Shown: piece after piece, positions 4,603 through 8,408 of the stretch
Position numbering within the stretch: position 1 is the first letter of the stretch
Layout: every line of letters starts with the position of its first letter
Assembly (NCBI RefSeq): GCF_001610895.1
Contig: NZ_CP011273.1
Span: 992,001 to 1,056,000 of the forward strand
DNA: 64,000 nucleotides
Direction: 5' to 3'
Source: Planctomyces sp. SH-PL62
Lineage (GTDB): Bacteria > Planctomycetota > Planctomycetia > Isosphaerales > Isosphaeraceae
Made by a program: the position numbers and the translations under genes
Notes under the pieces: generated by a model
What the model saw: the letters and a program-made list of their open reading frames with translations, nothing else
Databases searched by the model: none
What the model was told of the DNA's origin: nothing

Positions 4603-5988
4603 TCAGGAGTTCCGGCGCGAATCCGCCTCGTGGGAGAGCGGCGACGGCTCCGACAGCCCCCGGTAGTAGAAGAAGACGGCCGTGAGGGCCAGGAGCAGGC
4701 TCGACAGGGCCCCGGCGTAGGACAGCAGCCGGTAGCGGGCCAGCACGTCGTGCGTCTCGGCCGCCTTCTTGCCGTCCGCGGTGGCGAGGATCGCCCGCTG
4801 CTCCCGGATCTCTCGGAGGTGCTCGTCGGCGGCCTGCTCCAGCACGGCCACCCGCTCGCGGAGCCTGGGCGCCTCCTTGGCGTCGGCCTCGTAAGTCGTC
4901 AGCGACTTCCTCGCGGCTTCCAGCTCGGACTGGAGCGAGCCGGAGAGGGTCGCCAGGTCCTTCACGCGCACCCCGAGGGCCTCGTTGACCGACGCCTGGG
5001 CGGCGAGCTGCCGGCGGGCCTCGTCGCGGGTCCGGGCGAGCTTCTCGTAACGCTCGACGAACAGCTCGGGCGTCTCGCCGCCGACCTTCTCCAGCAGCAT
5101 GTCGACCGCGACCTTGCGCCCGGCCGCCGACTCGTCGACCTCCCGGCCCAGTGAGGCGATCGCCTCGGCCTGCTCCGCGAGCCGGGCGTCGACCCGGACC
5201 AGCCAGTAGCCGGCCGCGGCCGTCAGGACGAGCAGCAAGGTCCCGAGGAACCCCAGGAGCGCGGCCAGCGCCAGGCGGTCGCCGGGGCCTTCGAGGGGCG
5301 GGGCGGGTCGGTTCAGCATCTTGATCAGCTCCGCCTCGAGGCGAGGGGAAAGGGACGCGCCGACGCCGCCGTCGGGCGATCCCGGAAGGTTCTCCAGCTG
5401 GTCGACCAACCGGGAGAGCGCCACCCGGCCGGAACGCTCTGCGCAGAGGTGGAAGCCGCCGACCTGGACCATCTTGCCGTCCGACCACTGGAAGAACCCG
5501 CGCGTCCCCTGGATCGGGTCGACGACGTAGGCCGTCTGCAACGGCTGGGAGAAGAAGTTCTGGTGGATGAACAGGTCGTGATGCGACAGGAAGATCCCGA
5601 AATTCGGATGCGTGTGATACCAGCCGACGACGTCCAGGTCGGGGTGGAGGCGGTCCCGCTCGCGCGTGATCTCCTCCCAGGAGTCGTGGGTGTAGGTGAA
5701 GCTGGCCTGGGTGTTGGCGTAGTGCTTGGCCGGGAGCGCCTGGGTGATCCAGACGAAGGGGCGGCCGGTCGCCGGGTCGACGCATTCCTTCCCCAGCAGG
5801 ACGCCCCCCAGTTCGACCGAGGTGTCGGAGAGCGCGTGCCGCTCGATCAGATCGGCCGGGCCGAGGTCCAGGAAGATCGGCAGGTCGTCGGGGGAGGGGC
5901 ACTGGCAGGCGACGCAGGCGAACCGGGCGTCCCGGTCGGGCCGCTTCTTCTTCGCCGGCTCGCGGAACCGGATCTCGCCGAAGACCAT
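4603..5988 (-). CDS. JAMM/JAB-domain isopeptidase-like protein with two membrane helices and a long coiled coil
   Basis: A 461-residue protein, last gene of the ubiquitin-like operon, starting 11 bases after the E1 stop. Residues ~45-190 are a JAB/MPN domain with an intact zinc metalloprotease signature: Glu59 in SVELGG, then H125-T-H127-P and S135-H-H-D138, exactly the HxHPx6SxxD spacing of active deubiquitinases. An N-terminal cluster C25-V-A-C-Q-C30 may bind metal. A membrane helix follows at ~239-262, then ~160 residues of heptad-rich coiled coil (265-430), then a second helix at ~432-450 and a short charged tail. The expected role is to cut the ubiquitin-like modifier from its targets or to process it, at the membrane. 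The JAB domain is certain; the topology is predicted. Confidence 0.88.
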   Translation of the reverse strand: MVFGEIRFREPAKKKRPDRDARFACVACQCPSPDDLPIFLDLGPADLIERHALSDTSVELGGVLLGKECVDPATGRPFVWITQALPAKHYANTQASFTYTHDSWEEITRERDRLHPDLDVVGWYHTHPNFGIFLSHHDLFIHQNFFSQPLQTAYVVDPIQGTRGFFQWSDGKMVQVGGFHLCAERSGRVALSRLVDQLENLPGSPDGGVGASLSPRLEAELIKMLNRPAPPLEGPGDRLALAALLGFLGTLLLVLTAAAGYWLVRVDARLAEQAEAIASLGREVDESAAGRKVAVDMLLEKVGGETPELFVERYEKLARTRDEARRQLAAQASVNEALGVRVKDLATLSGSLQSELEAARKSLTTYEADAKEAPRLRERVAVLEQAADEHLREIREQRAILATADGKKAAETHDVLARYRLLSYAGALSSLLLALTAVFFYYRGLSEPSPLSHEADSRRNS

Positions 5989-5999
5989 GTCGTCGCCGC

Positions 6000-7205
6000 T
6001 CAAGAGTCGCCCCCCCCGCCGGTCGCGAGGCGGTCGCGGTCGCCGTCCAGCAGGAAGAACCGCGACTCGCCGTCGCCGTCGACCCGGACCACGTCGAAGG
6101 GGGGGATGCCGAGTTCGGCGAGCGTTCGCGACGCCAGGGGCGAGCCCTCGGCGATCGCGCTGAGGACGACCGGCCGCGCGTCCTCGCGGCATTCCGGGCA
6201 GACGGCCTCGGACTGGCGGACCCGAGTCCTCGGCCGCATGATCTCCCGACGACCGCCGCAGCGCGGGCATTCCACGGCCTCGACCAGCTCGCGGTCGAGC
6301 CCGAGCGACATCGGCCCCGCCAGGCCCTCGCGGGCCGCCGCGTCGAACAACTCCCGGAGGGTCGCCGATCGGCCCAGCTCGATCGCGATCGGGCTGGGGT
6401 AGGTCTCGTGGCTCAGGCAGTCCTCGCGGAACGGCAGTTTCGTCGTGTAGAACTGGTTGGCGACCCCGTTGAAGACCATCGCGGAGCCCCCCGAGACGTC
6501 CATGCCGTGCACCAGCTTGAGCGCCTCCTGGACCTGCAGCGCCGCCATCATCGAGGCGATCGTCGGGGCGGTGGGGACCTTGCCGGCCAGGATCTCGTCG
6601 CGCTTCAGGAGCGGGCAGCTGTACCGCAGGTTCAAAAGCTGGTAGTCGCGCTCGGTCATCGTGCATTCGTAGCAGGCCGAGGTCGGCGGGGTGAAGACCT
6701 TGACGACCCCCTGGATCTCCTGGATGCCGGCGTCGATCCAGGGGACGCCCATCTTCCAGCACTGGCGGTTGACCCAGAGCCGGGCCTCGCGGTTGTCCAG
6801 GCAGCCGATGACCAGGTCGACGTGGGCGAAGAGGCCCAGGCCGACGTCGGTGATTACGTCGCCGTGGATCGGGATGAAGGCGACGTCGGGGTTCAGCTCG
6901 GTCGCGCGTCGGGCGGCGACGGCCGCCTTGGATCGGCCGCCGTCCTCGGCCCGGAAGAGGACCGACCGCGAGAGGTTCGAGGGCTCGACGACGTCGAGGT
7001 CGATGACGTAGGTGGTCCCCAGGCCGACGAGCGCGAGGTTCTTCAGCACCTCGTTCCCCAGCGCCCCCGCGCCGACCACGAGGACCTTCGCCGCGGCCAG
7101 CCGCTCCTGCTTCCACCAGGAGATGAGGCGGAGCCGGCCGTAGCGATCCTCGTCGTCGATGCGCAGGGGGGGCTCGTCGGTCGTGGGGGGCGGCTGCGTG
7201 GTCAT
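6000..7205 (-). CDS. E1-like ThiF-family ubiquitin-activating enzyme homologue
   Basis: A 401-residue protein. The start at 7205 follows GGGAG by 5 bases; upstream in-frame residues look non-coding. The adenylation domain has VVGAGALGNEV (ATP loop, residues 44-54), acidic residues in YVIDLDVVEP, the N-x-x-R pair of EPSNLSR (N77, R80), Lys93 and GCLDN (D137). Next comes CYEC (178-181) and then YSCP with Cys197, followed by TAPTIASM. That order matches eukaryotic UBA2/UBA3, where the Cys after the CxEC element is catalytic. A CPRC/CPEC pair (313-316, 336-339) suggests a zinc ribbon, and the final ~55 residues may be an E2-binding beta-grasp domain. It should adenylate the C-terminus of the Ubl encoded upstream and pass it to the E2. 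Confidence 0.9.
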   Translation of the reverse strand: MTTQPPPTTDEPPLRIDDEDRYGRLRLISWWKQERLAAAKVLVVGAGALGNEVLKNLALVGLGTTYVIDLDVVEPSNLSRSVLFRAEDGGRSKAAVAARRATELNPDVAFIPIHGDVITDVGLGLFAHVDLVIGCLDNREARLWVNRQCWKMGVPWIDAGIQEIQGVVKVFTPPTSACYECTMTERDYQLLNLRYSCPLLKRDEILAGKVPTAPTIASMMAALQVQEALKLVHGMDVSGGSAMVFNGVANQFYTTKLPFREDCLSHETYPSPIAIELGRSATLRELFDAAAREGLAGPMSLGLDRELVEAVECPRCGGRREIMRPRTRVRQSEAVCPECREDARPVVLSAIAEGSPLASRTLAELGIPPFDVVRVDGDGESRFFLLDGDRDRLATGGGGDS

Positions 7206-7254
7206 GGGGTCTCCCGCCTCGTCCCGGCCGGGCCGGCGCGGCGCGCTCTCATTC

Positions 7255-8034
7255 TCATTCGATGAAGAGGATGTCGCCCTCGTGGCGAGGGGCGGGCGGC
7301 GGCTCGACGGCGCGAGGGGCGTCGACGTTCGCATCCAGGATCACGACGCCTTCCTCGGCGGCGGCGGCCAATGTCGGCGAGGGGCGAGGGGCGTCCTCGA
7401 TCGGCCGATTCCGCCAGTCCAGGAACCGGCGCACGCGATCGGTCGCCGCTCCGCCCGCCCCGCTCAGGAAGCCCCTCGGGCTCGATCCGGCGTCGGTCCT
7501 CGGCGCGGTCGTCGCCGCGATCTCGGCCGCGACCATCTCGATCCGGCCCCGGGCCTCGCGGATGTCGCGGAGCGGGCGCGGATCGGTGGGGAAAGGGACC
7601 GAGGTCTGGTTGCCGGCCCAGAGGGCGGCGTCCCGGTTGTAGGGGCTCCGGACGTCGTAGTTGTGGTAGCGGGCCATGTCCCAGAGCATCGTGCAGAGCT
7701 CGTCGAGCTGGACGCTGGGGACCCAGTGCGTCCCGTAGCCCCCCAGGCAGACCATGCCGATTTCGGAGATGTTGGGATGGTAGACGGGGGTCAGCCAGCG
7801 GATTTCGGGCATCGACCGGGGGTAGGACGAGCCGAGCTTGATCTCGATCTGGTGCGCCGCCACCACCTTCACCTTGCCGTGCTCGCGCTGGAGGCCCTTG
7901 CCCCGGAAGTTGATCCGGTAGTGGTGCGGCGGTTCCCCCTGGGTTCGGAAGTCGAACACGGTGCTCTCGGCGCGGAGGCGCTCGAGGGCCGCCAGGTCGT
8001 TGCGGAGCCGCCGGAGTCTTGGCGAGTCATGCAT
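7255..8034 (-). CDS. E2-like ubiquitin-conjugating (UBC-fold) protein
   Basis: A 259-residue protein. Residues ~1-150 follow the UBC fold: an N-terminal helix, a beta meander, then YPRSMPEIRW and TPVYHPNI followed by GMVCLGG. The HPN triplet is at 86-88 and the candidate catalytic Cys is Cys96, in the same spacing as the HPNI-x3-G-x-(I/V)-C-L element of eukaryotic E2 enzymes. The remaining ~110 residues are not part of a standard E2: a helical part, a low-complexity linker and a conserved-looking acidic tail ending GDILFIE. It sits between the Ubl gene (80 bases upstream) and the E1 gene (49 bases downstream), so it very likely carries the thioester-linked Ubl. No RING-type E3 is visible nearby. 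Confidence 0.9.
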   Translation of the reverse strand: MHDSPRLRRLRNDLAALERLRAESTVFDFRTQGEPPHHYRINFRGKGLQREHGKVKVVAAHQIEIKLGSSYPRSMPEIRWLTPVYHPNISEIGMVCLGGYGTHWVPSVQLDELCTMLWDMARYHNYDVRSPYNRDAALWAGNQTSVPFPTDPRPLRDIREARGRIEMVAAEIAATTAPRTDAGSSPRGFLSGAGGAATDRVRRFLDWRNRPIEDAPRPSPTLAAAAEEGVVILDANVDAPRAVEPPPAPRHEGDILFIE

Positions 8035-8114
8035 GGTCGTGGATCCGTCTCGTCCCGCTTCCTTCCCACCCGTCCCGTCGAGACTTCCGCCCCCTCGCCT
8101 CGCCCCGGCCCGGC

Positions 8115-8408
8115 TCAGCCGGCGACGACCTCGGGATAGACGATGAGATGGTCGCCGTCTCGGATCCCGGCGTCGACGAGGTTCCAGTTCTCCAGCAGTC
8201 GCCGCCCCCCTTCCTTGTGGTCGAGGGCGTAGCTCATCGGCTGGCCGTCGGGGCTCGTGGCCGGCAGGTTCATCTTGGTGATGATGTTCGGGATGATCCG
8301 GCTGACGGGCACGGTGAACGCGATCACCGCCTTGACCGACTTGGCCCCGGTCTGGTCCAAGAACGTCACCTGTACACCCGTAGGATCGCTCGTTCCGCCG
8401 TATGACAT
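8115..8408 (-). CDS. YukD/EsaB-like ubiquitin-like modifier protein
   Basis: A 97-residue protein, first gene of the operon. The ATG at 8408 has an excellent AGGAGG about 10 bases upstream; longer in-frame extensions look non-coding. The pattern is beta-grasp: VQVTFLDQTGAKSVKAV (first hairpin), a helix with VPVSRIIPNIITKMNLP, then SYALDHKEGGRRLL and AGIRDGDHLIVYP (last strand). The chain ends ...EVVAG, so the C-terminal residue is a free glycine and no propeptide needs removal before activation. With E2, E1 and JAB genes directly downstream, this is the probable conjugated modifier. The family resemblance (YukD/EsaB-type) comes from pattern reading, not a search. Confidence 0.82.
   Translation of the reverse strand: MSYGGTSDPTGVQVTFLDQTGAKSVKAVIAFTVPVSRIIPNIITKMNLPATSPDGQPMSYALDHKEGGRRLLENWNLVDAGIRDGDHLIVYPEVVAG

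Follow-up and report, generated by a model that had tools for sequence, protein, structure and literature searches.

A family-wide Ubl-E2-E1-JAB operon in Planctomyces sp. SH-PL62 and other Isosphaeraceae, with a Prok-RING_1 protein as its probable E3

A 64,000-nucleotide stretch of the genome of Planctomyces sp. SH-PL62 (contig NZ_CP011273.1, positions 992,001 to 1,056,000 of the forward strand), hereafter the window, carries four consecutive minus-strand genes, running from position 8408 down to 4603, for a ubiquitin-like protein (Ubl), an E2, an E1 and a JAB peptidase (Table 1). The genome, 6.78 Mb in five contigs, belongs to the planctomycete family Isosphaeraceae. An earlier note on this DNA, made from the sequence alone, had described the four-gene set, and its presence, its place and the intergenic gaps of 80 bases (Ubl/E2) and 49 bases (E2/E1) are confirmed. 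Each product exceeds the Pfam cut-off (given in brackets) of its family: 54.7 bits for the Ubl with YukD, PF08817 (27), 46.4 for E2 with UQ_con, PF00179 (27), 181.7 for E1 with ThiF, PF00899 (28.1), and 36.1 for the peptidase with JAB, PF01398/PF14464 (22.5). The 11-base gap that the note placed between E1 and JAB is probably wrong. The JAB protein has 461 amino acids if translated from ATG 5988 and 466 (MSGDDMVFGEI...) if translated from TTG 6003. A TTG or GTG lies in frame exactly five codons 5′ of the ATG in eight of 20 JAB rows, and nine of the remaining 12, read by eye, already start with a similar SGDE-type peptide; for these reasons the start was moved to TTG 6003, which is the most likely one and overlaps the E1 stop codon.

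Table 1. Features of the Ubl-E2-E1-JAB operon, in window positions.
Feature	Position	Strand	Properties
Ubl, YukD-family ubiquitin-like modifier	8115..8408	-	97 aa; end EVVAG (Gly97)
E2, UBC fold	7255..8034	-	259 aa; HPNI...GMVCLGG, Cys96, W104; variable Pro-rich linker; C-terminal DILFIE
E2 C-terminal acidic-hydrophobic motif, DILFIE-stop	7255..7275	-	proposed Ubl-docking motif, similar to a SUMO-interacting motif (SIM-like)
E1, single ThiF-type adenylation domain	6000..7205	-	401 aa; CxxC 178/181; candidate catalytic Cys197; C-terminal domain like a ubiquitin-fold domain (UFD)
E1 zinc-ribbon Cys 313/316/336/339	within C-terminal UFD-like domain of E1 (6000..7205)	-	
JAB/JAMM peptidase	4603..6003	-	two predicted transmembrane segments around a coiled-coil-like region; N-terminal SGDDMVFGE motif; most likely start TTG 6003

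The operon is widespread in its family. Of 25 genomes of the family, counting that of the window, 22 yielded an E2, as did one of 15 others. A neighbourhood survey across Isosphaeraceae, proposed in the earlier note, found all four genes in the order Ubl-E2-E1-JAB at 19 of 22 loci (the best E2 locus of each genome, window included), an agreement far beyond chance. The exceptions are locus L010, where the contig ends and JAB is hence missing, L044, where JAB was not found, and L045, where neither E1 nor JAB was found. For a wider set, 84,980 species genomes were scanned with two Ubl peptide patterns and the best 80 of 101 relatives were used; selected in this way the set favours close Ubls, and its gene counts are lower bounds, as contigs often end early. 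All but five of these loci are labelled as planctomycete, three of the five as members of other candidate or little-known groups and two only as 'bacterium'. At least 78 loci hold E2, 75 E1, 71 JAB and 54 a RING protein, discussed below; at least 71 hold Ubl, E2, E1 and JAB, and at least 49 hold all five, with every matched gene on the strand of the Ubl. At the two loci where E2 was not found near the Ubl, the contig ends less than 130 bases from it. In the cultured and completely sequenced Singulisphaera acidiphila DSM 18658, the genes for RING, Ubl, E2, E1 and JAB lie together (L155).

The Ubl, the only YukD protein in the window genome, was modelled with AlphaFold2 (AF2) at a predicted local distance difference test score (pLDDT) of 89 and matches beta-grasp Ubls. 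Foldseek ranks SUMO first among its structural matches, and SUMO was considered as the unique closest fold and rejected, since Z scores from VIA-align tie it with EccD, ISG15, ubiquitin and USP Ubl domains; the ubiquitin-like domains of EccD are among the closest structures by the same method (Z 11.0, 82 residues, root-mean-square deviation (rmsd) 2.1-2.2). Residues A96-G97 are present at 80 of the 80 loci of the wider set. The protein ends at Gly97 in 41 and continues for 1-68 residues beyond it in 39, with tails that vary in length and sequence, though short ones (RA, RR, RS) recur, preceded by an invariant PE[VI][VT]AG. Such strict conservation up to a glycine, with little kept beyond it, is typical of modifiers synthesised as precursors. 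When the window is compared with five congeners, the ratio of nonsynonymous to synonymous substitution rates (dN/dS, NG86) comes to 0-0.10 for the Ubl, against 0.19-0.28 for E1, 0.29-0.46 for E2 and 0.34-0.38 for JAB. Over 22 genomes, the mean protein distance of the Ubl (0.136) is close to that of a pyrophosphatase encoded near the operon (0.149), and the Ubl is thus about as conserved as this enzyme.

The AF2 model of E1 (pLDDT 86.8) aligns over residues 22-389 with the SUMO E1 9dqb_B (Z 29.2, 310 residues, rmsd 4.0), a span that covers the UFD, and the UFD also aligns structurally to UBA1 and UBA7. The core scores Z 31.4 with MoeB and ThiF, slightly above UBA3, UBA5 and SAE2 (Z 29.2-29.8), so that the UBA2/UBA3-like order of cysteines to which the earlier note pointed is non-specific. 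Its CxxC is present at 75 of 75 loci and Cys197 at 74, the last having a gap. E2 matches yeast Ubc13 (E 3.1e-10); its Cys96 is kept at 77 of 78 loci, with one gap, and His86 at 76, with Gln at one and a gap at one. The conservation of Cys96, Cys197 and the terminal glycine, which the earlier note had singled out for checking, is thus borne out. The parts of a conjugation and deconjugation cascade are present, as that note held, and their catalytic residues are preserved across relatives.

The C-terminus of E2 is conserved in its own right. After a variable Pro-rich linker, a strict DILFIE-type end occurs in 21 of 21 aligned family E2s (the alignment was made without the E2 of L042, whose chosen range overran its stop codon into the following gene), compared with a mean of 0.004 for shuffled tails. 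In the wider set the relaxed form of the motif is found at 76 of 78 loci (shuffles: mean 2.5, maximum 10), the strict form at 65 (shuffles: mean 0.02) and a third pattern at 62, and a related acidic-hydrophobic motif occurs at 48 of 71 JAB N-termini (shuffles: mean 1.5, maximum 6); all these patterns were composed after the alignments had been seen, so the shuffle controls overstate the surprise. By analogy, the motifs of E2 and JAB may be similar to SIMs.

The JAB sequence HTHPNFGIFLSHHD matches HxHPx6SxxD, with the His, His, Ser and Asp kept at 70 of 71 loci (one gap) and Glu59 at all 71, and its top sequence match in the PDB is to entries for the N11-like JAMM protein of Caldiarchaeum subterraneum. 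Membrane anchoring, suggested in the earlier note, is supported by hydropathy, which predicts transmembrane segments at residues 244-262 and 426-444; the same rule predicts two segments in 17 of 20 JAB rows and one in the other three.

The lack of an E3 that the earlier note reported holds only for the surroundings of the operon, and a genome search led to rejection of the reading that there is none. This search yielded a single Prok-RING_1 (PF14446) protein, apparently anchored in the membrane, at C1:1819997-1820815, 0.82 Mb from the operon, scoring 34.6-37.8 bits (whole protein 34.6) against a cut-off of 29.1. This protein is the orthologue of one gene family of about 278 aa found at 13 of 56 mapped loci, mostly just 5′ of the Ubl, whose members have a C-terminal Prok-RING_1 domain and a membrane segment predicted in the N-terminal region of six of six tested. 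The eight zinc-ligand positions (C4HC3) show no variation across the 15 aligned relatives (alignment A7, from which L214 was left out on account of an in-frame stop in the chosen range), and the zinc pattern is present at 53 of 54 RING loci of the wider set, the exception being L207 at 21 bits. The C4HC3 order of ligands is that of PHD and RING-v fingers. In 19 of the 35 family genomes that hold both, no more than 1.3 kb separates the RING gene from the Ubl gene; in the other 16, among them all six of the window's genus, the RING gene is distant or sits on a different contig. It is therefore part of the operon in many lineages and stands apart from the Ubl in this genus. Judged from sequence, this single Prok-RING_1 protein is the probable E3 of the cascade.

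The Ubl and RING genes also tend to occur together. Matches to the Ubl profile are present in 38 of 45 family genomes and in 30 of 392 sampled across the phylum. With author-set cut-offs for presence of 160 bits for a window-type Ubl and 220 bits for a RING orthologue, the former is present in 37 and the latter in 39 of the 45; genomes G428 (Ubl) and G429 (RING) were scored absent on the strength of weaker matches to other family members only. Both genes occur in 35 genomes, Ubl only in two, RING only in four and neither in four (Fisher p 0.006), and among 26 high-quality genomes the corresponding numbers are 23, 0, 1 and 2 (Fisher p 0.009). As a control, the pyrophosphatase was found in 40 of the 45, including all four of the genus that has neither gene. 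Protein distances correlate at 0.76 for E1 and RING (22 genomes), 0.62 for E1 and pyrophosphatase (22) and 0.40 for RING and pyrophosphatase (19), and these plain pairwise correlations hint at joint evolution of E1 and RING beyond shared descent.

Variants of the gene set were encountered in the course of this survey. At several loci outside the family, among them L168, L174, L182, L183 and L195, the Ubl is followed by two JAB and two E2 genes. A second system type, at L047:9504-17259 in genome G007, is ordered Ubl, E1, JAB, an FHA protein, zinc-ribbon proteins, a RING/trypsin-like protein and E2, and is likewise seen at L088, L091, L092 and L101; its E2 has a zinc ribbon in several cases, and some Isosphaeraceae hold both this type and a window-type operon. 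In G007, whose locus L045 keeps a window-type Ubl, E2 and RING, this divergent second system might supply E1 and JAB. Two further divergent loci (L097 and L098, in genomes G057 and G183; family f26) have E1 preceding Ubl and JAB; in L097, though not in L098, an E2 was called between the latter two. Their Ubl ends in FVAG plus a tail and scores only 51-54 bits. The window genome itself has a type VII-like cluster, with a WXG100 protein and an FtsK/SpoIIIE ATPase, at L225:9243-14917 (about 3.18 Mb on C1), away from its only YukD gene.

The most likely interpretation, with a probability of roughly 0.7, is that the four genes supply a conjugation cascade with its Ubl, E1, E2 and deconjugase, the Prok-RING_1 protein being the probable E3, and that this cascade is steadily kept and housekeeping-like, serving most likely in the regulation or quality control of envelope proteins. 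Sequence comparison establishes the parts, their conservation and their co-occurrence, and the constraint on the Ubl, its breadth in the family and the lack of defence matches nearby favour a housekeeping-like role. Several results weigh against this interpretation. The closest structures of the E1 core are MoeB and ThiF, which are sulfur-carrier enzymes, and the loop 194-209 that holds Cys197 is modelled at low confidence. Of the first three RING orthologues, that of L045 scores 37.9 bits with Prok-RING_1 and the other two score 23-24, below the cut-off, while a profile search of the PDB with the RING protein gave weak zinc-finger matches only (best 1weo_A, E 0.0017). Within the family, L045 has Ubl, E2 and RING with no E1 or JAB found nearby and L044 has no JAB; a Ubl without RING in two of 45 genomes and a RING without a window-type Ubl in four break the pairing, and the four genomes with neither are all of one genus, so their co-loss may be a single event. 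A docking motif at the N-terminus of E1, apparent by eye in several genera, matched by pattern search in only 10 of 75 E1s and is not claimed. Finally, the Bacillus YukD, a type VII protein, is reported as not conjugated in a passage of PMC1779556.

Other explanations of the same genes were weighed. The cascade could tag phage proteins and thereby protect the cell, as Bil and Bub systems do, and a passage in PMC12687455 indicates that bacterial operons with Ubl, E1, E2 and protease apparently act mainly in defence; PADLOC adds matches of E1 to a generic E1-E2 model (E 6e-15) and of JAB to a JAB model (E 1.8e-4), and core genes can still serve immunity. Against these stand the absence of any PADLOC match for the Ubl and an E of only 0.036 for E2, no match among eight neighbouring proteins, the low dN/dS of the Ubl and the presence of a window-type Ubl in 37 of 45 family genomes, compared with the sporadic spread that a published passage describes for operon types 6a-6e. 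A link to phage defence is accordingly weak, and a defence role seems unlikely. An equally unlikely proposal is that conjugates are passed to a membrane protease for degradation of membrane proteins, in the manner of endoplasmic-reticulum-associated degradation (ERAD), with a neighbouring M48 protease as the partner. A CAAX/Ste24-like M48 protease does lie near the operon at 16 of 56 mapped loci and an MMPL transporter at 12, mostly right after JAB, and M48 recurs at 17 of 80 loci of the wider set. In the window genome, however, the M48 orthologue is far off (C1:457340), three genomes without Ubl and RING keep it, and genus g9, which has both, gives weak M48 matches only. The M48 link therefore looks positional only; the protease was rejected as an integral partner, not being co-inherited with the system, and M48 and MMPL were treated as old synteny. 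A proteasome partner was likewise considered and dropped, as the one proteasome-family gene, of 199 aa, is HslV-like by size, and nothing follows from it.

Two readings would dispense with conjugation, and both are highly improbable. The Ubl might be a non-covalent structural accessory of type VII-like secretion, with the enzymes incidental; it belongs to PF08817, EccD domains are among its closest structures (Z 11.0), and a WXG100 protein and an FtsK/SpoIIIE ATPase are encoded elsewhere in the genome. The only YukD gene of the genome, however, is that of the operon; none adjoins the WXG100 matches at C1:3181257 and C1:3055844, and the WXG100 gene is about 2.2 Mb away. An E2 gene neighbours the Ubl at 78 of 80 loci, and the AG end is invariant. 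A type VII accessory role was rejected as unlikely. About equally improbable is that E1 and Ubl form a thiocarboxylate for modification of a cofactor or tRNA, as sulfur carriers of the ThiS/MoaD/Urm1 kind do, with E2 and JAB merely regulating. This would suit an E1 core slightly nearer MoeB/ThiF than eukaryotic E1s, and is opposed by the conserved UBC catalytic site, the UFD-like domain on E1 and the RING gene in the operon of many relatives.

If the operon does encode a conjugation cascade, the order of reactions that we infer from its parts would be as follows. JAB would trim the tail beyond Gly97, a step unneeded in the window's genus, whose Ubl already ends at Gly97. E1 would adenylate Gly97 and then hold the Ubl as a thioester, probably on Cys197, after which the UFD would present E2 and the Ubl would be taken up on Cys96. 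An isopeptide bond would form at the inner membrane, where the membrane RING protein would bring the charged E2 to substrates, and the membrane-anchored JAB would later remove the Ubl. The acidic-hydrophobic motifs at the E2 C-terminus and the JAB N-terminus may serve as non-covalent docking sites for the Ubl, in the way that SIMs do for SUMO.

A more far-reaching proposal is only tentative: that a true housekeeping Ubl pathway operates at the inner membrane of Isosphaeraceae and many other planctomycetes, in which a membrane RING E3 and a membrane JAMM deconjugase edit envelope proteins and the Ubl is bound by a SIM-like motif common to the E2 tail and the JAB N-terminus. If true, this would give bacteria a counterpart of SUMO or ERAD signalling for normal physiology, and not mainly a phage defence. 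The system bears on whether bacteria use Ubl tagging in normal physiology, on whether YukD-family proteins can be conjugated, and on whether docking through SIM-like motifs arose before that of SUMO or in parallel with it. The bacterial Ubl systems studied so far apparently act mainly in phage defence (PMC12687455); this operon behaves as a core gene set.

The 2011 abstract of Burroughs, Iyer and Aravind (Mol. BioSyst. 7:2261) reportedly holds that YukD-like Ubls may be conjugated and that the E1 has a UFD. Bacterial E1/E2/JAB/Ubl operons are described as sporadic in a passage of Iyer 2006. Part of a 2014 review (PMC4197634, citing Burroughs 2011) states that Caldiarchaeum-related operons occur in Planctomycetes and are often missing in close relatives, a remark with which the family-wide retention in Isosphaeraceae does not fit. 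By the same part of that review, systems of this kind had already been predicted for planctomycetes in 2011, so the kind itself is not new. As far as checked, what is new is that the membrane RING is split off, that JAB is predicted to sit in the membrane, that tail motifs are shared and that the set persists across the family; literature searches of titles and abstracts turned up no study of this system in Isosphaeraceae, though one may exist.

The closest parallels are the predicted Ubl-E1-E2-RING-JAB systems, which reportedly (Burroughs 2011) have the same five parts; in the window's genus, the RING gene differs in lying outside the operon. The operon of Caldiarchaeum subterraneum (Ub, E1, E2, RING and an Rpn11-like protein) has the same cascade logic, and the Ubl has the ubiquitin of that operon among its top matches in structure, whereas the Ubl described here is of the YukD family and the E3 and deubiquitinase have predicted membrane segments. 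The SUMO pathway (SUMO, SAE2, Ubc9 and SIMs) is comparable in that SAE2 aligns to E1 through the UFD and that SIM-like motifs are present here. SUMO deconjugases are cysteine proteases, whereas the deconjugase here is a JAMM enzyme. The BilABCD and Bub systems likewise keep genes for Ubl, E2, E1 and a JAB or deubiquitinase together; the source of this statement (PMC11354881) describes a CEHH site in BilB and two adenylation domains in BilD, one inactive and one active. In contrast to Bil, the planctomycete E2 has a eukaryote-type HPN site, its E1 combines one adenylation domain with a UFD, and the system has a RING partner.

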